Origin: a virus
Reading direction: 5' to 3' (one strand)
IMG/VR virus record: IMGVR_UViG_3300006327_000001
Location: 1-46,964 of that record
DNA length: 46,964 nt
The notes below the pieces were generated by a model that was not told where the DNA came from, ran no database searches, and saw nothing but the letters and a program-made list of their open reading frames with translations. Both the position numbers and the translations under genes were made by a program. Of this stretch, positions 1,051 to 39,492 are shown piece by piece; position 1 is the stretch's first letter, and every line of letters starts with the position of its first letter.

Positions 1051-1056
1051 TTGATC

Positions 1057-5902: not shown

Positions 5903-6003
5903 TTCGCACATGTTCTGCTAAAGCAGGAGTAATGGATGACTGTGGCGGTGTGCGCACGGTACTGGTCCCGAAGGGAGAATGTACTTGACCGAGTAGTAGA
6001 ACA

Positions 6004-6078: not shown

Positions 6079-6081
6079 GAT

Positions 6082-6160: not shown

Positions 6161-6190
6161 GTCACACCTATTAGATAACATTGGAGTCTT

Positions 6191-8139: not shown

Positions 8140-8142
8140 TTA

Positions 8143-11685: not shown

Positions 11686-11896
11686 GAGTTAATATCGCAC
11701 CGACTTTGCCTTGAGTAGCATCAGTGTATCCTATTGAGTGTAGCCAATGAGTTATAGTTACCTTGCCGATGCCACCTGCTTTAGACAGAGCATCCCACGC
11801 TTGGTTAAATACGTCGTCGGGGAGGATGTCAACCCATGCCCCTACTTTAGCCTCACGCGAAGAAGCGAATTCTTCTAGTGATTGTTCAGAGGCCAA
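11672..11896 (-). CDS. Hypothetical protein downstream of endolysin (74 aa)
   Basis: Unrecognised. An upstream GTG (11950) would make 92 residues but overlaps the endolysin gene deeply. TTG 11896 has GGAG at 7-nt spacing and overlaps the endolysin stop by 11 nt, so I prefer it. The C-terminal half (IGKVTITHWLHSIGYTDATQGKVGAIL) looks like a small helical domain. It may be a lysis accessory or a late regulator, by position only. Confidence 0.5.
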   Translation of the reverse strand: MASEQSLEEFASSREAKVGAWVDILPDDVFNQAWDALSKAGGIGKVTITHWLHSIGYTDATQGKVGAILTRERR

Positions 11897-22195: not shown

Positions 22196-23243
22196 CGACA
22201 ACACCACCTCTTCTAGAAGGACCAGCCCTTTCAGGTAGTGATTCAGGTGTCATTTCTTTCAGTCTTTCTGATACACTATCTTCCATAAGCCAACTACCTA
22301 TCAATTTTCTTAAACCAACAGGATCAGACTTAAGCAACTTCATATCATATTCAAGACCATCACTTAACATACTGCCGATTTCTTTAACACCATCCCATAA
22401 TTTTATACCAAACCTATGAGCATGTTTTTCAGCCCACTCTGGTCCGTACGGATAATCAAACATAATAGAATTACCATCAGACAAATTAGCGCGACGTAAA
22501 GTATTAGCCAGCTTAGTTTCTCCCTTACCTTCAAGATTCCTTATCCATTCTTCAGCAAATTGAGGTTCTACCCTCCCCACAACAGGACGCACATGACCCT
22601 TACTACTATCTATAAAAGCCTCAGCACTCCTACCAATACGAGCATGTAAACCTAAATTATATTTATCTTTAATTTCCTCTACAGTCATATCACCCACATT
22701 AGACGGATCCAAAACATTATCTAAATCAACAGTCTCAGGATGCAAACGCCCTTCATCACCCGAAAGCCCATGTTTCTCTCTAAGCATCTCCGAATAACGC
22801 ATACCAGCATTTTTACCTTCTTGACTGGCGGATGGAAGTTCCTCTTCTGTCCGCCAGTTACCTACTGCATACATATTAAATGTATCCATTGTTTTATAAC
22901 CGTCGAAATGCTCCCAATTAGGAGTTGTTCTAGGTTTATTATAAGAATGGTGCATAGCTACAGCGAATGCCGCTTTAGAATTAAGAACTGGATCATACAA
23001 ATCTTCTACAGAATTAATTCCGGGAATATTGTCTATTGCCCATTGCTTATTAACTCCTGAAATCTGCCATAAACCATATGCCCCACCACTATCATTCTTA
23101 GTCCACTTAGTAGGCTCACCGTTTGATTCAGCTAAAGCAATACCAGTAGCAGTCTGAGCTTCTTCAAAAGAAAATCCTGCATCCATAGCAAGCTGTAAAA
23201 TTTCGTCAGAATGGAGGTTGCCTTCTTCTGGTGTGTAGCTCAT
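22188..23243 (-). CDS. Virion-associated lytic transglycosylase (351 aa)
   Basis: The N-terminal 140 residues form a lysozyme-like SLT domain that opens peptidoglycan during DNA entry: ALAESNG with catalytic Glu39, then GGAYGLWQISGVN, DLYDPVLNSKAAFAVAM and a late TFNMYAVGNW. The remaining 200 residues are charged and helical with no named domain. Placement among internal virion proteins, away from holin and endolysin, supports an entry function and not a lysis function. ATGA overlap with the upstream gene. Confidence 0.85.
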   Translation of the reverse strand: MSYTPEEGNLHSDEILQLAMDAGFSFEEAQTATGIALAESNGEPTKWTKNDSGGAYGLWQISGVNKQWAIDNIPGINSVEDLYDPVLNSKAAFAVAMHHSYNKPRTTPNWEHFDGYKTMDTFNMYAVGNWRTEEELPSASQEGKNAGMRYSEMLREKHGLSGDEGRLHPETVDLDNVLDPSNVGDMTVEEIKDKYNLGLHARIGRSAEAFIDSSKGHVRPVVGRVEPQFAEEWIRNLEGKGETKLANTLRRANLSDGNSIMFDYPYGPEWAEKHAHRFGIKLWDGVKEIGSMLSDGLEYDMKLLKSDPVGLRKLIGSWLMEDSVSERLKEMTPESLPERAGPSRRGGVVDE

Positions 23244-25756
23244 AATGCTTTGCCACCCTTATCACGCACAGGCATATTAACTCTAGGCATCGTAGTACCC
23301 CAAAGAACTGCGTTAGCTGAACTGATACCGCGAGAGCTGTAATCTTGCAGAAGATCCAATCTACCTTCTAAGGTCGTCATCAATTCGTCATAATCCTCTG
23401 TGCCAGCTGAACGTGCCGCTGACAAGCCTGTATCTGCTCTCTGGAAAATGTCATCAGCGGTGAACCCATTATTTCTTGAGTGTTCAAAACCTATAGTGTT
23501 TGCGTATCTAGCCAACCCTGATCGAATCTCATCCCTTGTAGAGTTTGTAATATCGCCATCAAGCATCATTAAGAAATTTGATATAGCCACATCTTTCCCG
23601 ATTGAACCAGAACGACCTTCCATAAGGTCAGCCGCGTGTTGCTGTCTTTCTTTATCTGTTAAAGCACCGACCTTATTGGCATAGTTCATAAAATCTGAAT
23701 TGTTATGCCCGAACCGTATATTACTACCCCAATCAGAATCATCGTTATAAAAAGATTTTAGAATCTCTCCAGCCATCGCAACCTCATCAGGATTACCGCC
23801 CATACCCCAAGCCATGTTTCTTTCCTCAGCGGTCATATCACTCAACACTTGATCTATATTCTTGTTTATTTCTTCTTCAGGCATGTTCATCATAGGAACG
23901 AGTCTCTTAGAAAATTTTGCTTTAGCATGATTAGCGAACCTGTTAGACGCATCTACTCTGAACTGTCCTTCAGGATCCATGTCAGATGTAGCCATCCTTT
24001 GGATAACCCCTTCGTTCTGCATCTCTTTCCAAAGGTTTTTAACATCAGGTTCTATACCCAAGCGTCGGGCTTCATCAACATTTTGAACAATATCCCATTG
24101 CACTGCTTTGAATGCTTCTATTGTCTGATCGTCAACATGACCCCATCTATCAGGAGCAGGTAACTGACCTATAGAGTCATCCATGTAACCCATCGCATAC
24201 ATCGTTTGCTGGAATGACGCTATTACAGAAGAACCACCTGAACCCTCGTTAGTCCGATGGAACAAATCTTTAAGATAAGAAGCCGCGTGTACTGGTCCGA
24301 CTTTAACTCCATACTCCCCTGAGAAAAGATCCTCAAGCGAGGTTACTTGCCCAAAACTGGAAGTGTCATACGCTTCATCAAAGCCAGTAATCATACCGCC
24401 TTCATTATTCGTAATCATATAGGGGTTCGCTCTTGTGTGTTCCGTAATATATCTTTCAATCACTTGATCTCTAGCACCTGAAAGAACCTTGTTTGTTATC
24501 TCCTTGCCGAATTCTTTCTCCATGTACCCAATAATGTTTTGTGATTGGGTTTGAGAATGTGGACCTGCTGGTTCCATACCCAAATAATCCATAGATTGTA
24601 CTGGGTAACCACTTAAAATATCGTCCCACATTGCTTCTTCATTATTACCCAACATTGGTATGTCAGCTAAAACCTCTATATCCATATCTGAACTATTGAT
24701 AAAATCGTCAAACCTTCGGTGTGCTTCATCAAGTAACTGTTCATGCAATCCGGGAATGTTATGCCACTCCTCTCGCATATAATCACCTAATCTAGTCCGA
24801 CCCTCACCAGCCGTCACGTTTATAACATTCAAAGTGTCCTGATCGTTAGCTAGATACTGTTCCAACGTGTTGAAATCTTGTGGCGTTGCACCCATTACAT
24901 GAGGCTGTTCTAATACCACACGCATAAACTTGTCGTTAGCAGAATTTACAGTGTGACCTTCCCAAGCTAGTTTTTTAACAATCTCTTGGCTTTCAGGAGT
25001 AGGACCAAAACCCCCTAAACCGTCTCCCATTTCATAAGTAGGTGAATCAGAGCCACCAGATTCATCGTCATCTCTCATCACATCACTTCCGGGTAATCCG
25101 GGAGTTCGTCTGTTCATGTACTCTAAATAACCAGCGCCACCCATTCCAGTTCCAGCCATAAGTTGCTTGACGTACTTACCAGAAGTGGTGTTAAACGCTT
25201 CCATCTTTGCACCTAAAGGCGCACCGTATTTAGACATGTAACTGTCCCTCATACCAGTACCAGCATTCCATTTCGGAACTGCATTTACTGGACCTGTCGG
25301 TCTAAGCCCTCCTGTTTGCTGTGGAAGACTTGCTGTTCGTCCAGCACCGGCAGTAGTTCGACCTCGTGGTATATGACCTGTTAAATGTGAAACATTCTTT
25401 GGGTCGCTAGATTTTAACCCACCCATTGAAGTGTTATATAAAACCTTTCTTGGTAAAATTTTGTCACCTTTAGCTACTTTAGGAGCGAGTTTACCAATAA
25501 GCCCTTTCGCCCCTTTAAATAACCACTTTGCTTTACCTATTGGTGCGAACATAAAAGCCATCTCAGCCATAAGGCGAGCATCTGACATTTCATCTATCTC
25601 AGGATCACCCAGCTGATTGTGTACTGCTTCAAGTAAAGCAGGATCGAGATTCTCTATATATTCAAGAGTCTCTTCTTCAGACATATCAGAGAAATCCATG
25701 ACATCGCCGGTAATAGCCTGAAGAATCATCTGTACTTCTTCAATCCACTCGTTCAT
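23240..25756 (-). CDS. Large internal virion protein (838 aa)
   Basis: An amphipathic segment near residues 60-100 (MAFMFAPIGKAKWLFKGAKGLIGKLAPK) could insert in or lie on membranes. Around residues 530-570, SFQQTMYAMGYMDDSIGQL and HVDDQTIEAFKAVQ resemble a peptidoglycan-binding type-1 repeat. The rest is helical and acidic with Asp/Asn/Gly-rich linkers. Positioned between the giant protein and the transglycosylase with ATGA overlaps, it is probably an ejection protein that helps form the DNA conduit. No catalytic motif seen. Confidence 0.6.
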   Translation of the reverse strand: MNEWIEEVQMILQAITGDVMDFSDMSEEETLEYIENLDPALLEAVHNQLGDPEIDEMSDARLMAEMAFMFAPIGKAKWLFKGAKGLIGKLAPKVAKGDKILPRKVLYNTSMGGLKSSDPKNVSHLTGHIPRGRTTAGAGRTASLPQQTGGLRPTGPVNAVPKWNAGTGMRDSYMSKYGAPLGAKMEAFNTTSGKYVKQLMAGTGMGGAGYLEYMNRRTPGLPGSDVMRDDDESGGSDSPTYEMGDGLGGFGPTPESQEIVKKLAWEGHTVNSANDKFMRVVLEQPHVMGATPQDFNTLEQYLANDQDTLNVINVTAGEGRTRLGDYMREEWHNIPGLHEQLLDEAHRRFDDFINSSDMDIEVLADIPMLGNNEEAMWDDILSGYPVQSMDYLGMEPAGPHSQTQSQNIIGYMEKEFGKEITNKVLSGARDQVIERYITEHTRANPYMITNNEGGMITGFDEAYDTSSFGQVTSLEDLFSGEYGVKVGPVHAASYLKDLFHRTNEGSGGSSVIASFQQTMYAMGYMDDSIGQLPAPDRWGHVDDQTIEAFKAVQWDIVQNVDEARRLGIEPDVKNLWKEMQNEGVIQRMATSDMDPEGQFRVDASNRFANHAKAKFSKRLVPMMNMPEEEINKNIDQVLSDMTAEERNMAWGMGGNPDEVAMAGEILKSFYNDDSDWGSNIRFGHNNSDFMNYANKVGALTDKERQQHAADLMEGRSGSIGKDVAISNFLMMLDGDITNSTRDEIRSGLARYANTIGFEHSRNNGFTADDIFQRADTGLSAARSAGTEDYDELMTTLEGRLDLLQDYSSRGISSANAVLWGTTMPRVNMPVRDKGGKAL

Positions 25757-28700
25757 ACTTTTATCAATCCATTCTCAAATTTTGCAACAAAATTCTCTCC
25801 CAACAATGGAAGCACTAAACTATAATATATTTCATTTAGCCACGGCTTACCACGAACAAAGTCACGGAGGGTCAAATAAACCATTACTTTAATATTGTTC
25901 CTTAATTCACTAGCTTCACCAGTTGTTTGCCCTTTTAGCTTAAATAAGTCCTTTTCCATTTGAGTAGCTAGTCCCATAACTGCAAGCAAATCTGCTTTAT
26001 ATGGCCCTTCAGGTACTTTGTCAGGGTTATTAACAAGCAATTCTATCTCTTTCATAGATGCTTCACGTTTATCCCTTGACCTACCACCTTGATATTCTTT
26101 AGCAAATACTGGGTTGCTGGTCATAAATTGTAAATTATCTGCATCCCATTGCCTATCAAGCCCCGAAGTGTCCTGTTTATTAGCTAATAATGCATACTTC
26201 TTTTCAAGATAATCTGTTTTCATTTTCTGATATTGAGGCATCGCAGACTTGTAATACACCTCATTCAAATACTCTACAGGTGTCTGCAATTCTAAAAGAC
26301 CATGCGCTACCAGTCTTGCTTTAGCGTCTGCTTCGTAATCGTCGTCGTCAGAATCAAAACCGCGATCCATGAAGAAAGCCGCAGTATTAGGGAAGTTGTT
26401 AATAAACGGATTATTGTCAACGATCCAATCGTTAGCTTGTTCTGTCGTTTCCAAAACAGCTACCGTTCCTTTTTTATGTGTACCTACCATGAATGGTGTG
26501 TGTTTAAACGGATCAAACTCGCCTTCTTCAGCGATGATCTTCTCCATCCACATTCCGTAGGCTTCCTCCCAAGGAACACCATTGCCGACTAGCTCCCATA
26601 AATCTTGGTTTCTTTCAAACGATTCATTGTTCATAAGATCATGTAACCGTGCCGTAGCGGGGCCAGCCCACCATGTCATTGTTTGTAGAAGCGAATACTG
26701 TCTACCCATTTGCGCTACTTTGGCCATGAATCTTTCCATGAAAACTTCAGGGTTAGGTTGAGACGCTATCTCTTCAGGCGTTGGAAGCTGACCATGTAAC
26801 CCTAGATACTTGATGACTTCCATTTGAGCTTTGATTTTGCCTTTAGATTCAAAACCAAATCCATCCATTATTGCAGAAACAGGTCGTGCAATAACTTGTG
26901 GAACTACTGCACTCCAAACTACTTCTCCACGATTCTCAGGGGTGAACCTACCACCTGAAAGGTTGTTCTCAAAAGTCTTTCTGATAGTCGAATCAATGTT
27001 AGCGACTAGATTTATAGGGATTGAAAGTAAAGGACCAAAGCCCATCTGACCCATTCTGTCTAAATCATAACCCGGAATTACATGAAGGCTTGAAGCTAGA
27101 TTTGGTTTAGCTACACTACCTAAGTTTCCTCCAAAGATCCTGTTCACAATAGGCGTTCTGTCTGCTAGTTCCATTACGAAACCTACTGTGGCACCTGACC
27201 CCGGAATTACAAGAATGTCATTTCCGTATTGGTCTTTTTGAACGATACCCATATCACGTAACGCTCCTGTGAAAAGGTTCAGATTTCGTAACATTAATGG
27301 GTTATGTGCTAACCCTCGTGCGAATCTTCTAAGGAACGTGTCTTCAGCGAACCAGAATGGTACAGCTGTATTAACCATTGTTTGGAAGTTTGATCTGATT
27401 CTATGGTCATCAATGAATGAACTTGTTAGAGTCATAGCTCTTTGAAGACCAGCATCTCTCCATAGTTCGAGTTGCTTCTCTAAACCTGTGTTGTAAGAAA
27501 AGAAATCATCTAATAGTTTTGCATCGACTTTAGTATTTGAACTCGCCATCACATACAATTCTTCAAAGAACTCTGTTATTTGCGGTGATAATGACAGAGG
27601 TGCAGTTTCTTCTGTGCCGTTTAATATCACATCTAAATGCTTTTCGACACCTTTTTTGTTTCTGTTTTCTATAGCGTAGAAAAGGCCAGTAACCGGATCG
27701 TCCGCATCTGGTACTCGGCTTAAAGCGTTTTGCTTTACAAAATCTTCCCAACCGTTAATAACCAACTGTTTATTATCATTAACGCTAGATGTTTTACCTA
27801 AGCGAGTGTTAAGCGTTTTGAATCTGTCAGGAGCATGGAAGTATGCTTGCCTGAAACCTTCTGTTTGTTTCATGCCTGTTGTTAGATACTCATGGAACAA
27901 TGGTTCCCTGACCATCGCACCTAACATTGGGTGGACTACCCCATCAAAGAATCCTCTAAAGAGTTTCAAATAGAATGCGCTTTGGTCTTCTGCTTCAGCA
28001 GGAGCGAAACCTACTAATTCTTGCGGGGCGCTATTCCACCATCCGTCACTATCAGCATTCGCTTGCATACGACCTGCATCAACAGGAGCGTCATTAATTA
28101 CTTCATCAACCCACGGATGAAAAGTTTTAAGTGGAGTAGTAGTGCCTCCCCTTCTACTTTGGTTTGTGTAAGTATGTAAAAGGTTATCTATAACAAGTTG
28201 TCCAGTTTCCGAAATTGCATTATGAATTGTTGGACCACTAAATATTTGTTCTTCAAGATCCCATTCATCAGGTTTATACCATGCAAGCTCTGTTGAATTA
28301 TCAGGATCTATAATCGCATTAGGTCGTAATCCGTCTTTGTGTCTAGCTATTATCTTTTTGCTTACTTGATATTCGCCATTAGTTGACATCGGCACAGGTG
28401 TAAGACCCTCAAATGGACTTAAACGATGTGCGCCTATACCAAATACTATTTCCCCTCTTAACCCGCTTTCTCCCATTTGTGCAGAAGTAACAGCACCACG
28501 CCCATCACTAGCAAAACCGTAAACATGGTTCATCGTGCCTATATCACCAAACGAAGCATTACTTTCTGTAGAAGTTAAACCACCACGTTCAAGATCCCAG
28601 TCAGGAGTTTGAGCATTCCTTTCTCTTTCTCTTCTGTAATATCCGGGTTGGTTAAAGAACTCATCACCATGAAGATCTTTCGTTCCTATCCTTGGGAGTC

Positions 28701-31700
28701 CTATCTGTTCAACAGGGACACCTTTCATTTCTGCGATTGTTTCTACAACACTTTCAGCTATAGCTTTAGCAACCATTGGATCTGTAGAAGCTGTAACTAA
28801 TGGGAAATGCCCTGCATCAGCCCATTGTTCAGCTAATTTCATATAAGTAATACCGCTATTACGAGCGCCTTTTATACTCACAGCTGGATTTAATAATTGT
28901 GTAGTAGCAACCACTCCTGTGCTTTGTCTCTTAGGACCAGTACCACCTATTTCATCTAACTTGCGTGTAAGTGTCTCTTGAAATATTTGATGGAATTTAT
29001 TAGTAGCCCCTACTAATTCAGGGTCAGCTATCATTAAAGATGTCAAATCTTCTGCCACAGAGGTCGGCAACATAGGTACAAAACCTCTTACTACTGAATC
29101 TGGTACCGCATGAGATATGTAAGGAGCCGCTGGATCAGTAGAAATATTTGAGCGAACTGCACTTGTATGCGCTTGCTGACCTTCCGGTGTAGTGTGCGCC
29201 CCAACGTATGCCTTGTGCATCGAATCTCTCAAAGCCTCTTCTGAATAATGCAATTTGCTTATGTTTTTGTATCTTCCCGGATTTCCAAACAACCAATGTG
29301 CTATTTGGGTGCTTTGATTTCCGCGTGGAATACCATCAGTAATATTAGGTATAGGGATACCAAGCTCAGAGAAGGTAAGCATGTTAGCTTGGTTGGCTCG
29401 TGCTACCGCTTCAACATTATCAGCTGGTCCTATATTATAACCGTACCTTAAGCGCGACATCTGTGTTTCCCAAACATAAGCCATTAAAGCAAATTGGTCA
29501 GTTAATGGTGTATCTAAACCAATTACAGCATCTATACCACGAGTGTCTGCATAGAGGTTTACTAACTCAACAAACCTTTCAGCATCACTAAGCTGAGAAG
29601 GAACTATGTTTCTTGTCGCAAGCATTGTCACAAACTCATCGGCATTAAACCAACCGAATTGCTTCAAAGAATCAAAAGCTGTTCCTGTAAAACTACGGTT
29701 CTCATATGCTTCTTCTATAGCCCTAAGATCAATACTGAACGAGCCGTCAGAATGTGAAAGAGACGCTAAATTGCCTTGCGGATTAGAAAAAGCTTCTACT
29801 GTTACACCCCTGATAGGAGATGGGAAAGAAATCAACGGATGATCCGTAGAACCTTGGACACTGCTCTTAAGTTCTTCAAGCAACTCAGGGAATTTACCTG
29901 CCCAAAATGTGTCTTTAACAGGATGAGTAATCTGCCCTGATGCTAATAGTTCTTCTCTGAATGTAGGAGACTGATCGAATTTAGATTGAAGAATCTCTCT
30001 CATTAATTCTGTATTCGTATCAGTATCAGGCGCTAATTTGCGTCCTTTAGATTTAGCCGCCGCACCTGTTAGGTTTTCAAATCCGGGTACATACTCTCCT
30101 GTTTTCCAAGCTTGATACGCGCCTTCTGCTGTTGAAAATGCTACACCTCTGAAAACAAATTCTTCTTGGTGGAAGTTGCTTAAGACAGTGTTTAAACCTT
30201 TTTTGTAATGAACTTCTGTTACAACTGATGCTTGTTTTCTCGCATCAGGACCAGCAAGTTCTTTTAATTTAGACATTATATACTCGTATGTTTTCGGCGC
30301 TCTTGAAGGTAACTGAGCGAGTCCTGTTCCTATACCGTCTGTGGAATAAACTACATTTGCGCCTTCAGGTATTCTTGCGAACGCTTCATCAATCTTTGCT
30401 TTAGTAAACTTTTCAAAATCCCTATCTGAAAAAAACGAAGTTTCCTTATTGTTAGGCTCATGTTTAGTAGGGATCCCATAAGCATTAGGTTCATCTCGTA
30501 TAACAGCTTGGCCAGCTTTACCTTTGCCAGCAATATTATCTCCAAAAAGATACACAGTGTCAGGATTAGCTCTTAATAATTCAGGAGTCATACGATCGGT
30601 TTGTGACATGGTTCTACCTGTAACCATTTTCTCTGCATCGTCTACCCTCGCTAAACGTGCCTGCGAAATCAGCGCAGGATTACTACGCCTGAAAGTAATA
30701 TTGATACGCGGTCCAAGCCTTTCATGCGACAAACCGCGAGTAACTCGATGCTCCCAATTTTGTTGAGTGCCTTCACGCATCAAGAAAATGTCACCGTCCT
30801 CTAACGGCATATCTATATGATGTTCACTTCTATCAGTTCTATAACCGTATTCTTTACCATCTTCTCGCCATCTTGGTCTGAATTGGAAGTTTCTTGTTTC
30901 ACCAAAATTAACCGACGCAATAATCTCTTCAGGAGTCTGATCGGGAAGTTTGTCGAAATGCCAACCAAGGTCAACTGAACCCGAATCGTACCTTTGGATA
31001 ATAGCTATATCGAATTTGTAACCTGTTTCTTCTTCAACCCTTTTAAGTATTCTTGCGATCGCAGGAGGCCAACCAGCTTGAGTATCAGATTCTATCCAAT
31101 TACCCCCCATTGGTCTTTCGTCGCTTAACTTAGCTCCGGGTTTTGATTTACCATCATCAATAAGATTGAATCTTTTACCTGTGTAACCATATGATTCTCC
31201 GACTTCACCAACAACAATTATTTTTGGACCTGTTGCCTTGTTCTGTTTATAATGAGCGTCCCACCAAAAATCTGATAACTCGCCTAGAAGTTCGTCTATA
31301 GTAAACTCGCCTCTTAAAGCCGCTGGGTAAGAATCAATGTTTGCTCCACCTGCTTCTAACTGACGGTGGTTAGCTGACTTCTGTGGTTGAGCTTTAATAG
31401 CTATCCCAGTTTCAGGGTTAACCATTTCAAAAAGTATTTGTGTGTGTCCTTCACCATAAGGTCCACCTCTGTACCCATATACTTTCGCTGGAGTATCCGC
31501 TGGAATAGCAAACCCAGCACTAGCAAGTGATTCTGCCGCTTCTATCTGTGGATCTCCACCAGTTGTTTTCCAATTTTCGGCGGCGGCTTTAGGGCTGTAA
31601 CCTTCAGGCAACGCCCATTCTTCAGGAGTTAAAGTATCCGTTTTACGAACTTCCGTGACACGAACATAAATAGGTTCTGATGGCACTCCGTGTTTTGTTT

Positions 31701-34700
31701 TAGTGAACTTTAAATAGTCACCAACTTTCACACCTTCCACTTGAGCGTCTTTACGTGTAGTCGCTGTGCGTTGCCCATCTAAAATCGCTGTAAAAGTATC
31801 ATCCGATGTTATATGAGCGGCTTTAGGTAAAGCACCTCTTTGACCGTAATCAAAATTCATTGGTACCGGATGTGCCTCTCCGGGTTGAAAAATATATTGA
31901 CGAAAACCACCACTGTAATCTTGTACAGTTCTACTTAAAGTTCTTTTTGTACGTGCAGGAAGCGCCGCTCCTAGATCACTCTCTTTAACACCCAACGCTT
32001 CTACTGTTTCTTTTCTAAACACTTCAAGATAGCGGGGCGATCTGATGACACCATCCACAGGTGGCATTAAAAGATCGTGCCATAAATGACGAATCTTATA
32101 AGGAATGTATGAAAGAACACTATTTACTATTTCTTCCCAAGAAGCATTACCTTTAATAGCATCATCAAGATTGTTTTCTAATACACGCCTCACTCTTGGA
32201 GGTAACGCCTCCACAAACCAAAGTAATGACTGCATCGGAGTTTTAGGTTCAATTCCTGCAACAGCAGGTATGTCCTCTGCTTTCGTGGCTGTTTTAGTAT
32301 CGTAAACAGTTAAACGAGTCACACCATTTTCTGTAACCTCATCGTAATCTCTAGATGCTTTTCTTGAAGCGTCACCTTTAGCTTTGTTGTAAGCAGATAC
32401 TTCTGCAAGTTCTTCAGCACCAGCGATTTCCGGTTTACCAAAGTTAGCTTGCGTGTCTATTTTCACCCCTGCTGACAATGACTGATTCATAGCATCAGCA
32501 GTTCCACCCTCCCATTTTAATCCAGCTTGTACTTCAGCTGGGTTAGTTTGTGGACCGATGTACTCGAATCGTAACTCTACTGCCCTTGGTCCGCCATCTG
32601 GGAAATTAGGATCCCAATTTTTAATGTTGTCATCTAGTACAGAACCTTTCTTAACCCAGTTCTTCGGTTTTTTCATTTCCTGCATGAATTTAGGGCTTAT
32701 AAGCATGTTGTCATTTTTAAGCAGTTGAGCGATTTCTTCACCCTGACGTATCGCACCACCTGTTATACGAACTAAAACAGTTTGATCGCCTGATTTAATT
32801 GCGATTACTTGATTCAATAAGAATTCTGGATTCGACATTCCTCCGCTCATTTTTCTGAAAGCGGCAAACGGAAGATACGCAACTTTTAAAGGACTTTCCG
32901 CATCTCTACCAAGACCCTTAATTTTACCTAATATAAAACTACGTTTACCAATATCTAAAGTTTTGTCAGCCTCTTGAGTTTCAAATCCTTTACCACTATG
33001 GAACGCCCAAGTCTTATCAGCTAGTCCTCTCTCCCCTCCCTCAATCGGACGGCCTTCAAGCATTCTCTTATTTCTAATAGGACCAGCTTTAGCACCAGCA
33101 CCAGTCTTCTTGTCCCAAGATTCAGGATGTTTGCTTCCTTTTTGAATAGAAGAACCTTGAGTTTCTGGAATATAATATTGCTCTACGTTCAAACCTAACC
33201 TATTAGCTACCTGTTCTGCGTACTCATCCACGCCTCTAGCGCCACCTACACGAACAGTAGATCCCGGAGGCAACTGGGCTAAAGAATCGTCTATCGCTTT
33301 TTTGATTCGTGCTTCGTCCTGTTCAGACATAGCGCGAACCATTTTGCCTGTTGCTTTATCCTTTTTCCAAAACCTTTGCCCAGTAATCATCACAGTTATA
33401 GGCTCGGCTTCTTTAGCCGCCTGCAACGCCTGTTCTGTTATTTCAGCTCCCTCTGCTGGAATAATCCCACCCTTAGAAGCAGGCACATGCCGTGCGGGTA
33501 TCTCCGCTCTGCCTATATGAAATTCTCTTTGTCCTTGAGTAGGTAATTGTGAGATCATCTCATTGATGATTGGAGCTAATCGGGCTTCGTCTTCAAGATT
33601 CACAAAATGATTTAATTCGTGCAATGCCGCTACAGCACCAGCATCTTCCGCATGTATCTCCGCGGACTGCGCTAAAGCCAAAGTGTAATCAGGAGACTGT
33701 CCGGGATTATTCTGAACTACTCTCAACTGGGTTGTTGAATAATCAATAGGAAGTTTCACTAACTGTGAAAGTGTCTGCCCGAAACCTGCATCACGCATAG
33801 CAGTATCTAAAGAATTCTTACTGAAATTAAGATACGTGTCATGTGTGTTTAATATGTCTTTAGCTACAGCATCCATCATCGTTGGATTGCTTAAGGCGTG
33901 TTGTATATTACCTATTCGTGCCTCAGCATCAGGATCTCTTCTTCTTAACCATCTCTCAGCTAAATCTTGTTTAGTTGGTATACCAAGATTCCTTGAAGTA
34001 TCACCTATCCATCTACTGACATTGTTGCTAAAGCCATGCGCTCTTTGTTGTATAAACCGAGCCATCTTTGTTTTAGTGTTCATCTCACGTATTAATTTTG
34101 CTCGTTCAAATTCAAACGCCGCTAATCTAGTAGCGTCATCTTTAAAGCCCCAAGCGATACCACCCTCTGGCCCTTTAAGAACATTAGACAATGCTTTACG
34201 CGTAATAGCGTAGTCGCCTACACCAGCAATCTCATTCACAGAACGTATAAGCCTACCGAATGGTTTACCTATCAGAAGACGGTGATCCATGTCAGATAAT
34301 TCGTCAATGTTCTTGACCATCTTGCGACCATACTCGTCCCAAACAATGACCTTGCCTGCCGCTGTTCTAGCCAATTTATTATTAACGTAACTTCCCGGAC
34401 CTTCACGAAGCATCCATGAGAAGAGCTCTTCTCCACCGTTACGCGCAACGTAACCTAACCGTAATAGAACTGCTGGTCGCCAAATTCTTCCCATCCATTT
34501 ATCTATCCAAGGAATAGGTGTCATCCAACCAAATCTCTTGTACATGTTTATGTATTTAGCTACAGCCGCTAACTCTCTATAGTTAGGGATTACGTTCATT
34601 CGTGACATTTGCGCTAAGTTCATGTCGCTGACAAAAATGCCTCTAGGTGCGCTCATGCCGAATATGCTTACACCGTCTTGTTTTAGAACATCGTAATGAT

Positions 34701-37305
34701 GGCTTCCGTGACGTATGAACCTATCAACGAATTGTGTTACGTCGTCACCTGCGTGTAGCAGGATACCTGATCGTCCAACAAAATCTAAAAGAAATTCGCT
34801 TGATACAATCCAACGTTCAGCTTCGTTACCTGTAATGAATTTACGTATATAACTGTTGATTTGCGCTCTTGGCATGTGGGCTAAAGAACCCATTTTTACA
34901 AGAGCTTTAAATTCTGAGATAGAAGTAAGCGCATCAACACGATCCAAGTGACCGGCTTTAGGTACATATGTGATTAAAGATCTTGCAAACTTCGCAGGAT
35001 AATAGGCCATTGATGTGGCTGTCGCTAAACTAAATACTTTTAACTTTTCAGCTAATCCTACTTCCGCATTGAAACTTCCTGTAGGCGGTATGTTGTCTGT
35101 GTAATAATTTCTTGCGGCTCTCCACCAGCCTTTAGGAAGAACGTCACCTTTTTGAAGGTATCTAACCTTTCCTGTCTCATCAATTATGCGACCATCACCT
35201 TTGTAATAATTCAACAGGTCGCTAACTTCACCCTCATCCATAAGTCTTTTAAAGATTTCGCCTTCATCTAACATCTTTTGATGACGGCTAGTAATTAGAG
35301 TTACGTCCGCTTTTGATAAACCCATCATCATATTAGCCATTGAAGCTCGTTGATCTACGTCACGAATTTTAAGTAATGCACCCATATCAGCGTGACTAAT
35401 TTCTTTTGATAACGTGAGAACCCCATTATCAATATCTTCCATTAATAATGCGACTGCGGTGTAATCTTGTTTTTCTAAATACTCGCCAGATAATCTGGCT
35501 ATACCAGCAGTTATATCATTATGACTGTTCTTACCGAAATCAACAGTCTGATCCATTAAAGTTTTAACTCGTTGCCAAGATGCGCCTCTGAAAGTTAAAC
35601 GAGGAATAAATATTGCGTCAGGATCAACGCCACCCATCTTTGATGATAATGCTCTAGCACCTAAATCGTCTTTAAGAAAATTCCAAAACCCATCATATGT
35701 TGACAAGTCTTGTGGTTTTACTCTTTGTCCAGTAGCGGTTACCCAACCATCATCCAATCGGGCTTTCAAGTTGTATTCAATCATGTGTTGAAGCCCTTGT
35801 TCCATTCCCGGAATTAATCTAGTGAACTCTTCAAGCAAAGCATCTGCATCAACACTTGCTAGATCAGGGTGCCTCTTAAGTAGTTCTTCTTCTACTTTCG
35901 CGTAGGTCGCATCTACACCCATCTCATCGCGAATAGCTATCCGAGCATCTTCTGTTCTATTAAGTTTGTCGAAAGTTTCATTGACTTTTTCAATAAACCT
36001 GTTCCTAGCATTAGCGTTCATCCTCACTAAAGGATTCAATAACCCAACTGCACGTAACCCTCTATGGCTTCTTGACCATTCACTCATCAATTCATCGTGC
36101 GTGTTGCTAAGTCTCGCCATTTCTGATCGAGGTAGTTTGCCTCCATGCTCACGAACTATTCTCGAATATTGTTCAGCTAAATCTATTGTCTTCCAAGCGT
36201 CAGCATTACGTATACCCATCTTGGTTAGTTTCGCCGCAGAAAACGCTGGTCCAAGTAGCCATGTTGTCGGATCAAATACAATCCCTGTAGCTATTGTCCC
36301 AGTCGTACCTACCATTTTGCCGTACAGACTGTCAGGTGCCGCGTCAGGTAAGAAAGGCAGATACTTGTTGAACATTCTTATAGAACCATTGAACGTATCT
36401 AATTTGTTTGATTGTAAAATAGCTAATGCTTCTTGACTGTCTTCTCTTGCTAAAGATTCATACCAATCCGAATGCAAATTGATTGCGTCTTCTATTGGTC
36501 TGCCACGCGCTTCCATTTCATCTTTAAAATATTCAGCGACCGCATCATTCCCTTGAGCTACATACATTCTTAATAGCTTTGTTCTATCAGGTCCCACTAA
36601 TTCTAAAGCGTCAGCAATAGTATCTTTACTGTAGGAATCATTTTCTAAACGTGTGTTGTTCCATGCTTCTCTCCATTTAGGAGGTTTAAACATAGAGTTA
36701 GCACCAAGTTCTTCTAAATACATTAAACTTCTAGTGAAGCGTTGCCCAGCTCTCCAACTTTTTTCAACACCCTCCCAAAGAGATGAACCTACAAAACCTA
36801 AACCAGCGCCAACAGCTTTGACTGGAGCTAACGCCGCTTTTGGTAAAGCAAGAGGAGTACCCCAACTTCTATCATCCAACCAGTTATCAAAAGGATTAAA
36901 AGGAATGTCCCAAGTTAAAGCTCGTTGCCACCAAGGGCGTTCATCTTGTTTTTTATCAGGCAACTCGTAACCAGCACTTAACATCATTTGTTGAGTTGTT
37001 GGTGGGAGATTAGCAAATTCAGAAGGCTGGAATGTTTTAGGAACTTTTTTAAAATTCTCTATCTGTTGCCTTAAATAGATTTGATCGTTAGCTGTATAAA
37101 GAGTCTCAAGCTGTTTGTCTATAGATATGTTGCTACTAGCTAAATCAACTAGCCGAGTAGAAAGTTCCGGTCCTTGAATAAATCTACCGGCACCACTTCG
37201 CATAAGCGTAGCGTAATTCTCTCCATACATAATGGAGTTGAGATTGTCTTCTCGCCCCCAGTTTCGGTTACTTGATGTAACTGGGTTAAATCTAGAATTG
37301 ACCAT
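25753..37305 (-). CDS. Giant polyvalent internal virion protein (3850 aa) with SLOG, ASCH, AlkB, FGDN and NADAR domains
   Basis: One open frame takes up a quarter of the window. Residues 1-1220 and about 3080-3850 are helical, Trp/Arg-rich virion-type sequence (for example WRPAVLLRLGYVARNGGEEL and QTMVNTAVPFWFAEDTFLRR) like the large core or ejection proteins coded next to portals. Between them lies a domain series: HELNH (1229-1233); DUF2493-type SLOG (1301-1417; MITGQR, GGARGVD, AGPIRNKRM); ASCH (about 1825-1963); AlkB dioxygenase (2000-2207; H2116, D2118, H2186, R2200, R2206); a phage FGDN domain (2235-2353); NADAR (2360-2484; LSNF, E2394). Residues 2485-3080 are unassigned. It is likely packaged and injected to counter host defences, as proposed for polyvalent proteins. 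It overlaps its neighbours at both ends (14 and 4 nt). Confidence 0.85.
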   Translation of the reverse strand: MVNSRFNPVTSSNRNWGREDNLNSIMYGENYATLMRSGAGRFIQGPELSTRLVDLASSNISIDKQLETLYTANDQIYLRQQIENFKKVPKTFQPSEFANLPPTTQQMMLSAGYELPDKKQDERPWWQRALTWDIPFNPFDNWLDDRSWGTPLALPKAALAPVKAVGAGLGFVGSSLWEGVEKSWRAGQRFTRSLMYLEELGANSMFKPPKWREAWNNTRLENDSYSKDTIADALELVGPDRTKLLRMYVAQGNDAVAEYFKDEMEARGRPIEDAINLHSDWYESLAREDSQEALAILQSNKLDTFNGSIRMFNKYLPFLPDAAPDSLYGKMVGTTGTIATGIVFDPTTWLLGPAFSAAKLTKMGIRNADAWKTIDLAEQYSRIVREHGGKLPRSEMARLSNTHDELMSEWSRSHRGLRAVGLLNPLVRMNANARNRFIEKVNETFDKLNRTEDARIAIRDEMGVDATYAKVEEELLKRHPDLASVDADALLEEFTRLIPGMEQGLQHMIEYNLKARLDDGWVTATGQRVKPQDLSTYDGFWNFLKDDLGARALSSKMGGVDPDAIFIPRLTFRGASWQRVKTLMDQTVDFGKNSHNDITAGIARLSGEYLEKQDYTAVALLMEDIDNGVLTLSKEISHADMGALLKIRDVDQRASMANMMMGLSKADVTLITSRHQKMLDEGEIFKRLMDEGEVSDLLNYYKGDGRIIDETGKVRYLQKGDVLPKGWWRAARNYYTDNIPPTGSFNAEVGLAEKLKVFSLATATSMAYYPAKFARSLITYVPKAGHLDRVDALTSISEFKALVKMGSLAHMPRAQINSYIRKFITGNEAERWIVSSEFLLDFVGRSGILLHAGDDVTQFVDRFIRHGSHHYDVLKQDGVSIFGMSAPRGIFVSDMNLAQMSRMNVIPNYRELAAVAKYINMYKRFGWMTPIPWIDKWMGRIWRPAVLLRLGYVARNGGEELFSWMLREGPGSYVNNKLARTAAGKVIVWDEYGRKMVKNIDELSDMDHRLLIGKPFGRLIRSVNEIAGVGDYAITRKALSNVLKGPEGGIAWGFKDDATRLAAFEFERAKLIREMNTKTKMARFIQQRAHGFSNNVSRWIGDTSRNLGIPTKQDLAERWLRRRDPDAEARIGNIQHALSNPTMMDAVAKDILNTHDTYLNFSKNSLDTAMRDAGFGQTLSQLVKLPIDYSTTQLRVVQNNPGQSPDYTLALAQSAEIHAEDAGAVAALHELNHFVNLEDEARLAPIINEMISQLPTQGQREFHIGRAEIPARHVPASKGGIIPAEGAEITEQALQAAKEAEPITVMITGQRFWKKDKATGKMVRAMSEQDEARIKKAIDDSLAQLPPGSTVRVGGARGVDEYAEQVANRLGLNVEQYYIPETQGSSIQKGSKHPESWDKKTGAGAKAGPIRNKRMLEGRPIEGGERGLADKTWAFHSGKGFETQEADKTLDIGKRSFILGKIKGLGRDAESPLKVAYLPFAAFRKMSGGMSNPEFLLNQVIAIKSGDQTVLVRITGGAIRQGEEIAQLLKNDNMLISPKFMQEMKKPKNWVKKGSVLDDNIKNWDPNFPDGGPRAVELRFEYIGPQTNPAEVQAGLKWEGGTADAMNQSLSAGVKIDTQANFGKPEIAGAEELAEVSAYNKAKGDASRKASRDYDEVTENGVTRLTVYDTKTATKAEDIPAVAGIEPKTPMQSLLWFVEALPPRVRRVLENNLDDAIKGNASWEEIVNSVLSYIPYKIRHLWHDLLMPPVDGVIRSPRYLEVFRKETVEALGVKESDLGAALPARTKRTLSRTVQDYSGGFRQYIFQPGEAHPVPMNFDYGQRGALPKAAHITSDDTFTAILDGQRTATTRKDAQVEGVKVGDYLKFTKTKHGVPSEPIYVRVTEVRKTDTLTPEEWALPEGYSPKAAAENWKTTGGDPQIEAAESLASAGFAIPADTPAKVYGYRGGPYGEGHTQILFEMVNPETGIAIKAQPQKSANHRQLEAGGANIDSYPAALRGEFTIDELLGELSDFWWDAHYKQNKATGPKIIVVGEVGESYGYTGKRFNLIDDGKSKPGAKLSDERPMGGNWIESDTQAGWPPAIARILKRVEEETGYKFDIAIIQRYDSGSVDLGWHFDKLPDQTPEEIIASVNFGETRNFQFRPRWREDGKEYGYRTDRSEHHIDMPLEDGDIFLMREGTQQNWEHRVTRGLSHERLGPRINITFRRSNPALISQARLARVDDAEKMVTGRTMSQTDRMTPELLRANPDTVYLFGDNIAGKGKAGQAVIRDEPNAYGIPTKHEPNNKETSFFSDRDFEKFTKAKIDEAFARIPEGANVVYSTDGIGTGLAQLPSRAPKTYEYIMSKLKELAGPDARKQASVVTEVHYKKGLNTVLSNFHQEEFVFRGVAFSTAEGAYQAWKTGEYVPGFENLTGAAAKSKGRKLAPDTDTNTELMREILQSKFDQSPTFREELLASGQITHPVKDTFWAGKFPELLEELKSSVQGSTDHPLISFPSPIRGVTVEAFSNPQGNLASLSHSDGSFSIDLRAIEEAYENRSFTGTAFDSLKQFGWFNADEFVTMLATRNIVPSQLSDAERFVELVNLYADTRGIDAVIGLDTPLTDQFALMAYVWETQMSRLRYGYNIGPADNVEAVARANQANMLTFSELGIPIPNITDGIPRGNQSTQIAHWLFGNPGRYKNISKLHYSEEALRDSMHKAYVGAHTTPEGQQAHTSAVRSNISTDPAAPYISHAVPDSVVRGFVPMLPTSVAEDLTSLMIADPELVGATNKFHQIFQETLTRKLDEIGGTGPKRQSTGVVATTQLLNPAVSIKGARNSGITYMKLAEQWADAGHFPLVTASTDPMVAKAIAESVVETIAEMKGVPVEQIGLPRIGTKDLHGDEFFNQPGYYRRERERNAQTPDWDLERGGLTSTESNASFGDIGTMNHVYGFASDGRGAVTSAQMGESGLRGEIVFGIGAHRLSPFEGLTPVPMSTNGEYQVSKKIIARHKDGLRPNAIIDPDNSTELAWYKPDEWDLEEQIFSGPTIHNAISETGQLVIDNLLHTYTNQSRRGGTTTPLKTFHPWVDEVINDAPVDAGRMQANADSDGWWNSAPQELVGFAPAEAEDQSAFYLKLFRGFFDGVVHPMLGAMVREPLFHEYLTTGMKQTEGFRQAYFHAPDRFKTLNTRLGKTSSVNDNKQLVINGWEDFVKQNALSRVPDADDPVTGLFYAIENRNKKGVEKHLDVILNGTEETAPLSLSPQITEFFEELYVMASSNTKVDAKLLDDFFSYNTGLEKQLELWRDAGLQRAMTLTSSFIDDHRIRSNFQTMVNTAVPFWFAEDTFLRRFARGLAHNPLMLRNLNLFTGALRDMGIVQKDQYGNDILVIPGSGATVGFVMELADRTPIVNRIFGGNLGSVAKPNLASSLHVIPGYDLDRMGQMGFGPLLSIPINLVANIDSTIRKTFENNLSGGRFTPENRGEVVWSAVVPQVIARPVSAIMDGFGFESKGKIKAQMEVIKYLGLHGQLPTPEEIASQPNPEVFMERFMAKVAQMGRQYSLLQTMTWWAGPATARLHDLMNNESFERNQDLWELVGNGVPWEEAYGMWMEKIIAEEGEFDPFKHTPFMVGTHKKGTVAVLETTEQANDWIVDNNPFINNFPNTAAFFMDRGFDSDDDDYEADAKARLVAHGLLELQTPVEYLNEVYYKSAMPQYQKMKTDYLEKKYALLANKQDTSGLDRQWDADNLQFMTSNPVFAKEYQGGRSRDKREASMKEIELLVNNPDKVPEGPYKADLLAVMGLATQMEKDLFKLKGQTTGEASELRNNIKVMVYLTLRDFVRGKPWLNEIYYSLVLPLLGENFVAKFENGLIKV
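29853..30234 (-). other. NADAR (YbiA-like) domain within the giant protein
   Basis: Residues about 2358-2484. LSNFHQEEF (S2376 to F2378), FSTAEGAYQAWK with the conserved E2394, ILQSKFDQSPTFREELL and DTFWAGK (W2468) match the NADAR family. Members cleave N-glycosidic bonds in ADP-ribose-linked substrates, and some remove ADP-ribose from guanine in DNA. Confidence 0.82.
30245..30600 (-). other. Phage FGDN...GIGTGLA domain within the giant protein
   Basis: Residues about 2235-2353. NPDTVYLFGDNIAGKGKAGQA (F2254-N2257), then IRDEPNAYGIPTK, FFSDRDF and DGIGTGLAQL (G2324). I know this pattern as a stand-alone phage protein of uncertain function; the Gly-rich loops suggest nucleotide or ADP-ribose binding. 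I am not sure of its database name. Confidence 0.7.
30680..31305 (-). other. AlkB-type 2OG-Fe(II) dioxygenase domain within the giant protein
   Basis: Residues about 2000-2207. Metal ligands H2116 and D2118 (WHFDKLP) and H2186 (WEHRV), and the 2-oxoglutarate/catalytic arginines R2200 and R2206 in RINITFR (the AlkB R-x-N-x-T-x-R motif), are all present, with PPAIARILKRVEEETG and SVNFGETRNFQFR. Expected to remove alkyl lesions from DNA or RNA bases. Confidence 0.88.
31415..31830 (-). other. ASCH domain within the giant protein
   Basis: Residues about 1825-1963. FTAILDGQRTATTRK (D1843 to K1852) is the classical ASCH start, followed by VGDYLKFT, a V-x-V-x-E-V strand and EGYSPKAAAENWKTT. ASCH domains resemble PUA domains, bind RNA, and include N4-acetylcytidine amidohydrolases. 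Confidence 0.7.
33055..33405 (-). other. SLOG (DUF2493-type) domain within the giant protein
   Basis: Residues about 1301-1417. ITVMITGQRFW opens the fold; VRVGGARGVDEYAEQVANRLG (G1354, G1355, R1357, D1360) is the Rossmann-like loop; AGPIRNKRM (1407-1415) is the third signature. SLOG domains bind nucleotides or ADP-ribose-like ligands and appear in several anti-phage systems. Confidence 0.85.
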
Positions 37306-37675
37306 TACGTAAATGGTCTTTCAAATCATCTGCCGCCATTCTGACAGCAGGGTCAGGAACATGTTCCGCTAAATCACTTAAAAAAGCCGCGGCTCTCGTC
37401 TTGTTGCTAATAATAAATTGTTGAGGACGAGAACGCATGTTCGTACCTTGAGCTGTTAATGGCGTAATAGTATTAGGGAAACTCGATGCCGCTTCCACAG
37501 GATTCACAGGAAGGTTTTGTTCAGGAACCGCACCTGTAGCACCAACAGTCGGATCAGACATATCCGGCATACCTATGTCTTTAATCAGTCCTTCATTAGT
37601 TTGAACTTCACCATAATCAGCGCCAGCCGCCATTGGTGTAGTTTTAACAGGAAGATTCTTTTTAGCTCTGACCAT
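37292..37675 (-). CDS. Hypothetical protein between portal and giant protein (127 aa)
   Basis: Unrecognised. The N-terminal two thirds are Pro/Gly/Thr-rich and probably disordered; the C-terminal part (TRAAAFLSDLAEHVPDPAVRMAADDLKDHL) is a helical domain. It shares one base with the portal stop and overlaps the giant gene by 14 nt. It could be a head completion protein or a chaperone linking the giant protein to the portal. Confidence 0.55.
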   Translation of the reverse strand: MVRAKKNLPVKTTPMAAGADYGEVQTNEGLIKDIGMPDMSDPTVGATGAVPEQNLPVNPVEAASSFPNTITPLTAQGTNMRSRPQQFIISNKTRAAAFLSDLAEHVPDPAVRMAADDLKDHLRNGQF

Positions 37676-39492
37676 TAGCTAGTCCTTAATGCACTAGCTA
37701 ACTCTTGTACTGCGCCCGGAGAAAATCCTTCTGTGGGTTGTTCAGCAGGGGCTTGTCCTAATCCTTGTGCGCCAGCCGCCATCCCCATCGCTTCTTCAGG
37801 TGCCATCATTTGACCCTCTTCAGGTGGAGGGGCTACCGCCGCTTGCTCCTCACGAATTTCACGGTCAGCTTGTTCGATCGCTTCAAAAATATCAAGCCCT
37901 TTCTTACGGTGCTTCTCTATTTTAGAAACATAAACAACTGGTAGCTGTCCTGATAATGCTTGCTGTTGTATCGCCTGCATTACTGCTTCTTCCAAAAGTT
38001 CTTCATCTACTCTGCGACCTTCAGCTTCAGCATCTTCAATAAATGGATGCTTAGTACGGAAAGTTCTTAGACTGATACCTTTCATACCAAGCAACTGGCC
38101 TAATTGAATTGTCGTTCCTTGAACATCTGCGCCGGGGACTGAGTACGAAACCACATTGTCATATGTCTCAAAATGTTCGTTTGGAGTAAATTCTACTTGA
38201 CCCAAATCCCCAGCGTAACCAGTGAACATAGAGAATTTTTTACTACCGAAATAACCTTTATAAGAAGCGAATAGGCATTCGTTTAGATGAGGAAGATGAG
38301 CCTCCATAATCTCTTGCATTTCTTGGATACGCGGATCCAATGCCGCGCCCATAAGCGAGTCGATTCCTCTACCTGTACGTAACGCTCCGTAAGTTTCCCC
38401 ACCAATTTGTGGGACGGTTCCTGTCGATACACGAGCATTTCTTTCCAATCTGTCGATGGCAATATTTGTACTCGGATCAGGGCTTGATCTTAATTCGCCT
38501 ATTTCTTCTGCGTCGAGAAGTATGTTTACTTCTCCTTCACGACCGTCTTTCCATTCACCTCCGACGATCATAGGCACCTGACCCGATCGTCCTATTATAT
38601 ACCTATCAGGGAAGATAGCTTTTTCCTGTGCCATTATTTCCAACGCCATCATTTTTGACATAAGATCCACGATTCCTACAACATTTGATATTGAGGAAGC
38701 AATCTTATCTAAGCTGACTCGACCCGGAGTTATCACACAAGGCATACCAGCTTTGTTCGGTGCGCGTGACAATTCAATCTGTGTGCTGTGTCTAGAATAT
38801 GTATTGTTCTCAAAGAAGTGATGGTATCTTGGCCCCATGATGCCGATGACTATATGTTCGTCATCTACCCATTCGCAAACATCCCATAGTTCTTGTCGTG
38901 ATTTTTCATCAGAATTTACAGGTCCACCATTTTCTTCTCTGGAAGCAGGGTAATGCGCTCTTAACCAGTCGCCTGATTTGCCGTAAATAAACCCACAATT
39001 TCGTGGTGGATCTACGTCTTCGTATGCTTTCGGTTCTGGATATACACCCAAAGGATCACGTATATCAATACGTGGAAGCCCCTTATTAAAATCTGGTGTT
39101 ACCACTAAACAAGATGTGGCATACCCAGCTAAATGCCTATAAGCGCGGCGCATTTTAATCTTATATTTAGATGAATACCATGTCGCAGACAACGCTCTTC
39201 TACGAATATCAGCATACTCTCTTGACCTGATACCACGTTCTTTAGACTGATCTACAGCTGGGCATCCGATAAAAGGCATCACTGATGCGGCTCTTTGAGC
39301 TACAGCATCAATGTTCTCTGATATTAAAGCAGGGGTAAGAGGAGGCAGAACAGGTTCTTCATCCATTGATGGCAACGGTATGACATATTCACCGTTGTAA
39401 CGCTCCTTTATTTCGAGCATTCGATCCAATAAAGGGCTTTGTGCGTCTTGTCGTTGTCGTATTATTGATACAATTTCATCAAATGTATACAT
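37675..39492 (-). CDS. Portal protein (605 aa)
   Basis: Forms the dodecameric vertex through which DNA enters and leaves. It is recognised by place (directly downstream of the terminase, TAATG-coupled), length, and the portal-like N-terminus LLDRMLEIKERYNGEYVIPLP followed by LTPALISENIDAVAQRAASVMP, a conserved GYATSCLVV strand region, IDIRDPLGVYPEP, and the wing/stem helix around VGIVDLMSKMMALEIMAQEKA. The acidic Pro/Gln-rich C-terminus (AAVAPPPEEGQMMAPEE) is a flexible tail. Confidence 0.8.
   Translation of the reverse strand: MYTFDEIVSIIRQRQDAQSPLLDRMLEIKERYNGEYVIPLPSMDEEPVLPPLTPALISENIDAVAQRAASVMPFIGCPAVDQSKERGIRSREYADIRRRALSATWYSSKYKIKMRRAYRHLAGYATSCLVVTPDFNKGLPRIDIRDPLGVYPEPKAYEDVDPPRNCGFIYGKSGDWLRAHYPASREENGGPVNSDEKSRQELWDVCEWVDDEHIVIGIMGPRYHHFFENNTYSRHSTQIELSRAPNKAGMPCVITPGRVSLDKIASSISNVVGIVDLMSKMMALEIMAQEKAIFPDRYIIGRSGQVPMIVGGEWKDGREGEVNILLDAEEIGELRSSPDPSTNIAIDRLERNARVSTGTVPQIGGETYGALRTGRGIDSLMGAALDPRIQEMQEIMEAHLPHLNECLFASYKGYFGSKKFSMFTGYAGDLGQVEFTPNEHFETYDNVVSYSVPGADVQGTTIQLGQLLGMKGISLRTFRTKHPFIEDAEAEGRRVDEELLEEAVMQAIQQQALSGQLPVVYVSKIEKHRKKGLDIFEAIEQADREIREEQAAVAPPPEEGQMMAPEEAMGMAAGAQGLGQAPAEQPTEGFSPGAVQELASALRTS

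Follow-up and report, generated by a model that had tools for sequence, protein, structure and literature searches.

A giant phage protein encoded beside the portal gene combines a conserved carrier with exchangeable cargo domains

The window analyzed here, a 46,964-base IMG/VR virus record taken at its full length, encodes a giant protein whose two conserved ends form a carrier and whose middle holds disparate domains. Analysis of the gene and of its relatives revealed the domains themselves, the split between carrier and cargo, the insertion slots, the exchange of cargo, and purifying selection, while packaging, ejection, all enzymatic activities, and a role in counter-defense are what we infer. 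We consider it probable that the giant is a polyvalent, ejected virion protein with exchangeable cargo for counter-defense and nucleic acid repair.

The giant ORF is a single frame from ATG to stop on the minus strand (Table 1), which confirms the uninterrupted 3850-residue frame of the original prediction, where the strand was left unstated. Since the frame is open over its full length in close relatives (86-96% identity) and dN/dS is 0.14 to 0.46 in every module, it is not a chance ORF. Genes are transcribed in the order TerL, portal, 127-aa gene, giant, 838-aa gene, SLT and, further along, the SU10-type capsid gene, and the TerL, portal, SLT, and capsid neighbors place the giant within the head/ejection section of the virion gene cluster. 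With these neighbors and with disparate domains in one frame, the proposed polyvalent-protein reading fits. Elsewhere in the window, a separate 2OG-Fe(II) oxygenase gene (42589-43257, minus strand; PF13640, E 1e-9) is present besides the AlkB domain of the giant. The left arm (5492-10282, plus strand) encodes SSB, DUF932, a PD-(D/E)XK nuclease, a Gp3-like recombination directionality factor-like gene, and an HNH endonuclease, and an exonuclease gene lies at 10630-11685 (minus strand). Just upstream of the capsid gene is a gene for a zinc-ribbon protein (PF09723; 17724-18092, minus strand) with a weak match to phrog_6422, "Lar-like restriction alleviation."

Table 1. Features of the giant protein and of the surrounding virion genes, with positions in the window.
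Feature	Residues	Position	Strand	Basis or remark
Whole giant ORF	1-3850	25753..37305	-	3,850 aa; predicted mass 430 kDa
N-terminal carrier core	1-1255	33541..37305	-	Matches cargo-less relatives at 26-36%; core profile
Slot A, probable SLOG/YAcAr-like domain	1290-1425	33031..33438	-	Sub-cut-off Pfam, PHROG, motifs
Slot A, domain X	1430-1640	32386..33018	-	Beside SLOG in L089 and L091, partly in L125
Bridge, short helical stretch of the core that separates slot A from slot B	~1670-1760	32026..32298	-	Core profile 1290-1369
Slot B, probable ASCH-like domain	1820-1960	31426..31848	-	Sub-cut-off Pfam, relatives, model
Slot B, AlkB 2OG-Fe(II) oxygenase, ALKBH2/3-like	1970-2210	30676..31398	-	Pfam, PDB, motifs
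Slot B, DUF7831 "FGDN" domain	2230-2350	30256..30618	-	Pfam; absent from L002 and L003
Slot B, probable NADAR/gp30.3-like domain	2360-2487	29845..30228	-	Sub-cut-off Pfam, relatives, model
Slot B, domain Z, degenerate zincin-like	2490-2690	29236..29838	-	Alignment with relatives
C-terminal carrier core	2695-3850	25756..29223	-	Core alignment; dN/dS 0.14
Terminase large subunit (TerL) gene		39492..41210	-	phrog_38, E 1.3e-50
Portal protein gene		37675..39492	-	phrog_104, E 1.8e-8
127-aa gene between portal and giant		37292..37675	-	No PHROG match
838-aa gene directly downstream of giant		23240..25756	-	Family-conserved; candidate second internal protein
SLT transglycosylase/lysozyme gene		22188..23243	-	Pfam SLT_3, E 3.7e-12; candidate third internal protein
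Major capsid protein gene, SU10 type		16514..17707	-	Pfam, E 2.9e-54

With TerL as the query, 171 related IMG/VR stretches were found and 80 were kept, representing a phage family with TerL proteins 80-100% identical and with the giant gene just after the portal gene. The 42 giant genes fell into 32 distinct clusters at a threshold of at least 90% identity. Most of the relatives' giants align only to residues ~1-1250 and ~2698-3850 of the window protein, at 26-39% identity, and most have just about 100-150 residues between the two conserved ends. No recognizable trace of cargo was seen in 19 of the 32 non-redundant giants, and their size is about 2,530-2,800 residues. On a core profile made from 13 cargo-less forms (2,579 positions), comparison of loaded and cargo-less forms located three insertion points: ~1285/1290 (slot A), ~1369/1370 (slot B), and one lying between ~1488-1509 and ~1711-1792 (slot C), the last being used in some relatives, not in the window protein. 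Judged from these alignments, the ~1,430-residue middle of the window protein consists of cargo, which was inserted before and after a short conserved bridge. This bridge is retained in the window protein and had been overlooked, as had domains X and Z. The virion-type ends that had been proposed belong to a conserved family whose gene comes just behind that for the portal, and some relatives have both ends minus the cargo. One relative, L119 (on the same contig as L067 and L135), has its giant in two overlapping frames (6065-10597 and 10476-14123) near core position 1441, which reflects either a gene that is genuinely split or a frameshift in the assembly.

The phages of the carrier family are mostly known from metagenomes, and no homologue of either end, nor of the cargo-less core, was found among isolate phages. 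Profiles made from near-identical sequences only returned the same clade and reached no distant relatives; a second search round with a diverse C-core profile added further relatives. A C-core profile had no significant match to a solved structure (PDB), and Pfam searches of the whole giant and of slices found no RNA polymerase domain. The gene at the same position in a Streptomyces phage matched the core weakly (hmmsearch E 0.0027, hhalign P 0.019). The N-core motif WRPAVLLRLGYVARNGGEE (residues 942-960) has a look-alike, WKPAILLRAAWTSRVVGEE, in other giants with DUF7831 and a counterpart, WKFAQLFRLGYAPR, in the equivalently positioned gene of the Streptomyces podovirus; the resemblance, with its weak statistics, hints at a wider superfamily. 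Homology of the core to the large protein of ct2KA10 was also considered and found no support. A search for a host among genome contigs gave a single match, a 16.8-kb contig (L120, PBPE01000058.1) that encodes a cargo-less giant and was binned in a Dehalococcoidia MAG from the Red Sea. This may hint at the host, but since the contig may be mis-binned phage DNA, no host is claimed.

AlkB-family enzymes strip alkyl groups from bases and are recognized by the HxD...H iron ligands and the 2OG motif RxNxTFR. The slot B oxygenase matches PF13532 (2OG-FeII_Oxy_2; residues 2073-2206, E 2.7e-24, 86.9 bits versus a cut-off of 31.2) and contains HxD (H2116, D2118), the second histidine (H2186), and RxNxTFR (2200-2206); the catalytic residues are also found in the relatives L114, L116, and L117. 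Its best solved relatives are human ALKBH3 (the closest PDB match, E 1.8e-17) and ALKBH2, not E. coli AlkB. On these profile and motif matches, the identity of the domain as AlkB is beyond doubt. The sole PADLOC match, CARF_2OG, was to the oxygenase part.

The ASCH domain is probable, being the weakest of the named domains at the sequence level: PF04266 scored E 0.094 and 13.9 bits in the window protein and E 1.5e-4 and 17.9 bits in the relative G005, both below the cut-off of 21.2. The top PDB match of its model (Foldseek E 0.024, prob 0.96) was 2z0t, an ASCH-family structure (PMC6972931). Since the mean pLDDT of the SLOG-X-ASCH model is 48, it serves as supporting evidence only. The catalytic Thr-Lys-Glu triad of YqfB-type amidohydrolases is not preserved; by spacing, the position of Lys21 is taken by Arg1846, and that of Thr24 by Thr1849.

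SLOG domains have as hallmarks GxR, GGAxGxD, and AGPxRN. In slot A, the motifs GxR, GGAxGVD, and AGPIRN are invariant in five lineages (the window protein, L070, L089, L091, and L125), and matches were obtained to PF10686 (YAcAr; E 8.3e-5 on a slice, 22.8 bits, below the cut-off of 28.2) and to phrog_289 (E 8.5e-8), which points to a probable SLOG domain. Among the Foldseek matches of the SLOG-X-ASCH model, DprA, which we take to be a member of the SLOG superfamily, ranks eighth (E 0.35). Domain X matched no Pfam family. Domain Z is metallopeptidase-like; its counterparts in L091, L112, L113, and L137 keep the zincin motif HExxH, which the window clade has lost (WETQMSR in the window protein). 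Zincin-type peptidases are a recurring theme of polyvalent proteins (PMC5512222), and the carrier may therefore once have cleaved itself. A zinc peptidase at HELNH (residue 1229) was ruled out, as the motif is not conserved.

The DUF7831 domain was identified by a strong match to PF25176 (residues 2237-2345, E 3.2e-32, 111.3 bits versus a cut-off of 27). Its fold was modeled confidently (local pLDDT ~96), and Foldseek found no convincing PDB relative; scattered tyrosine-phosphatase matches at E ~1 were taken as noise. The viral matches were other DUF7831 proteins, including those of giant viruses and a crAss-like phage, and our literature search found no paper on the family. The adjacent NADAR domain is probable from its sequence and model: the slice scored below the cut-offs for both NADAR (E 3.3e-6, 27.9 bits; cut-off 35.1) and Phage_30_3 (E 7.2e-7, 29.5 bits; cut-off 36), and the NADAR domain of L114, with which it aligns at 42-45%, clears the cut-off at 41.7. 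The top PDB match of its model was the NADAR protein YbiA (2b3w; Foldseek prob 0.98, E 0.083, TM 0.42 to the target). H2461 is invariant in seven relatives and may be the equivalent of the catalytic histidine of gp30.3 (last strand, phage type).

All five domains named in the original prediction (SLOG, ASCH, AlkB, FGDN, and NADAR) were thus recovered, AlkB and DUF7831 strongly and the others below Pfam cut-offs with backing from motifs, relatives, or fold matches. That each has its key residues holds for the AlkB HxD/H/RxNxTFR and the SLOG motifs and goes too far for ASCH, with Arg1846 in place of the YqfB lysine. The structure predictions of slices that had been suggested ranked YbiA first for NADAR and 2z0t first for ASCH, both at E > 0.01 and with the pLDDT of 48 for SLOG-X-ASCH.

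When domain order was compared among the homologues found in IMG/VR, a search that had been proposed from the outset, no fixed order was seen. The window protein carries SLOG-X in slot A and ASCH-AlkB-DUF7831-NADAR-Z in slot B; L125 carries SLOG and, in a separate slot, ASCH-cpYpsA-NADAR, and L142 has cpYpsA and a helix-hairpin-helix (HhH) domain, likewise in separate slots. L114 (4,154 residues) has NADAR-AlkB-cpYpsA in slot B, while slot C holds AlkB-cpYpsA-ASCH-DUF7831-NADAR in L116 (4,465 residues) and AlkB-cpYpsA-NADAR in L117 (4,367 residues). Domains are also nested: L091 has SLOG-X plus a NADAR domain with DUF7831 inside it, and L256 (4,285 residues) has ASCH in slot A and DUF7831 and NADAR in slot C, with cpYpsA inside NADAR. 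L002 and L003 match the window protein elsewhere at up to 99% identity and are missing precisely DUF7831, an in-frame difference of 128 residues. Moreover, the relatedness of AlkB conflicts with that of the core: the core of the window protein is 48% identical to that of L114 and 29% to that of L116, whereas its AlkB is 44% identical to that of L116 and 32% to that of L114. The series SLOG-ASCH-AlkB-FGDN-NADAR is thus not a fixed system, given this variation in order, content, and slot and the lack of FGDN in L002 and L003. The L137 carrier has only a 290-residue insert of no assigned family; two genes downstream, a second large ORF (L137:14766-22880) of at least 2,704 residues, which runs off the locus, combines NADAR and cpYpsA with a Z-like HExxH domain; cargo can thus reside in another gene of the same cluster.

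Within the window clade, pooled Nei-Gojobori estimates from five sequences, which come without confidence limits, gave dN/dS of 0.20 and 0.21 for the N-core halves and 0.14 for the C-core, and of 0.20 for DUF7831, 0.22 for NADAR, 0.30 for SLOG, 0.35 for X, 0.40 for AlkB, and 0.46 for ASCH. As all values are below 1, the cargo is maintained by purifying selection, more loosely than the core.

DUF7831 was also found in other large viral proteins. Among 80 DUF7831 loci in viruses, 54 lie within ORFs of at least 600 residues, a fraction that may be biased because the loci were found via patterns from embedded copies. In an N4-like virion RNA polymerase of 3,879 residues (L241:1911-13550), DUF7831 occupies residues 1096-1209, ahead of the polymerase domains. 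Many other giant phage ORFs (L163-L239) contain DUF7831, some with NADAR, cpYpsA, DNA polymerase B, helicase, NUDIX, or glutaredoxin domains, and these are probably several further polyvalent families.

By architecture, the giant falls among the polyvalent proteins that phages and conjugative elements encode (Iyer et al. 2017; PMC5512222) and that are predicted to be injected: these too are large multidomain products of phage virion genes in portal-terminase neighborhoods, with unrelated enzymatic domains and a metallopeptidase-type domain, here seen in the relatives of the window protein. The class is known; what is new is one defined carrier family with natural cargo-less forms, its fixed insertion points, and the AlkB/ASCH/SLOG/NADAR cargo, and the main text of PMC5512222 has no AlkB, 2OG, dioxygenase, SLOG, YpsA, ASCH, or NADAR. 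The virion RNA polymerase of N4/Schitoviridae, about 3,500 residues and expelled into the cell (PMC12633501, PMC10925440), is likewise a giant single-chain virion protein, and DUF7831 lies inside the N4-like L241, but no RNA polymerase domain was found in the giant, and no sequence relation of the core was detected. For phage SLOG and NADAR proteins, packaging and a role against ADP-ribose-based defense or NAD-derived signals have been proposed (Iyer et al. 2022; PMC9503650). Except in the polyproteins of RNA viruses, the two domains are described as typically standalone, whereas here NADAR and SLOG are fused with AlkB and ASCH in one chain and nested in relatives. T4 gp30.3, to which the giant is linked by its Phage_30_3/NADAR Pfam match, is a standalone protein of 208 residues with no virion fusion; in vitro, phage-type NADARs, this protein among them, take ADP-ribose off guanine in DNA, and gp30.3 did not rescue cells from DarT1 (PMC11125620). 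Finally, Beephvirinae Streptomyces phages have a large gene at the same position after the portal gene (for example Percastrophe gp9, 1,648 residues), with a short similarity around W+xAxLxRLGYxxR and weakly supported homology; its product is shorter and annotated as hypothetical.

We propose that the two conserved ends, which together make up ~2,400 residues in the window phage, would act as packaging and ejection machinery, with effector cassettes inserted at tolerant points of the carrier: A before the bridge, B after it, and C further on in some relatives. The giant would be packed beside the portal and exit ahead of or along with the DNA, so that the cargo would reach the cytoplasm ahead of all phage gene expression and act at once. 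NADAR, perhaps with DUF7831, would take ADP-ribose off guanines of the incoming DNA or off signals derived from ADP-ribose, and AlkB would remove alkyl groups from DNA or RNA. NAD-derived signals would be bound or destroyed by SLOG, while the ligands of ASCH would be nucleic acid or modified nucleosides. The common theme may be the removal of nucleotide-derived marks or signals, which would be useful in the minutes before phage gene expression. Cassettes are gained, lost, nested, and swapped at a faster pace than the carrier evolves, which would be expected of cargo that follows shifting host defenses.

Ejection is suggested by gene position, size, carrier/cargo anatomy, and the company of the protein, namely DUF7831 in an N4-like virion RNA polymerase. 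The ejected-carrier reading draws further on the cargo-less forms, the three slots, the reordered cargo, the exact absence of DUF7831 from two close relatives, the discordance between AlkB and core, the kept AlkB catalytic residues, the cargo dN/dS of 0.20-0.46, the DUF7831 domains in large ORFs, and the in vitro activity of gp30.3. Counted against it are the arginine in place of the YqfB lysine, the degeneration of a peptidase-like domain that might free the cargo, the lack of an isolate with the core and of a PDB match for the C-core, the weak Streptomyces link, the Foldseek E values above 0.01 for NADAR and ASCH, and the failure of gp30.3 to rescue cells from DarT1. The core has no recognizable homologue of known function, which would suit a tail or other structural protein that is not ejected, or cargo that acts late, in assembly, on new phage DNA. 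Set against the place of the gene directly after the portal, the nearby SLT gene, the size of the giant, and the presence of DUF7831 within a protein of an ejected class (PMC12633501), this appears quite improbable.

Ejected cargo could instead start the host takeover rather than protect phage DNA, with SLOG and NADAR making or erasing NAD-derived signals, AlkB erasing host methyl marks, and ASCH acting on host RNA. In line with such manipulation, a resetting of methyl marks on the DNA of phage or host has been proposed for AlkB-like enzymes of jumbo phages, and a role as signaling toggles for SLOG/NADAR fusions (PMC7824862). However, a set for de-ADP-ribosylation and dealkylation suits repair or removal of modifications better than attack, and Pfam found no ART, kinase, or nuclease domain in the giant; we regard host manipulation as unlikely. 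Very improbable is that the cargo is padding or decoration, needed for folding or for filling the capsid and with its enzymatic activity irrelevant: many relatives are cargo-less, and Z and the ASCH lysine are degenerate, but the AlkB iron/2OG ligands and the invariant residues of DUF7831 and NADAR persist across lineages with ~30% core identity, the cargo is under purifying selection, and the same domain types were recruited repeatedly into different slots.

Polyvalent phage proteins are a known concept, usually met as single architectures; here the same carrier exists both empty and loaded, its insertion points are mapped, and its cassettes are gained or lost one domain at a time, so that the idea of delivery can be tested directly. 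The domain repertoire could be read as a list of the host defenses that phages of the carrier family have met, and DUF7831, a family still without a name that turned up here mostly within giant viral ORFs, gains a function-bearing context. The finding suggests natural insertion sites in a predicted ejected protein. Tentatively, the carrier may be a natural modular delivery platform, an ejection protein of ~2,530 residues that tolerates insertions at three or more points and would bring folded, exchangeable enzymes into the cell before the phage genes are expressed, including AlkB as a nucleic acid dealkylase and NADAR as a DNA de-ADP-ribosylase with DUF7831 as its functional partner. If true, this would imply host defenses that alkylate or ADP-ribosylate incoming DNA.
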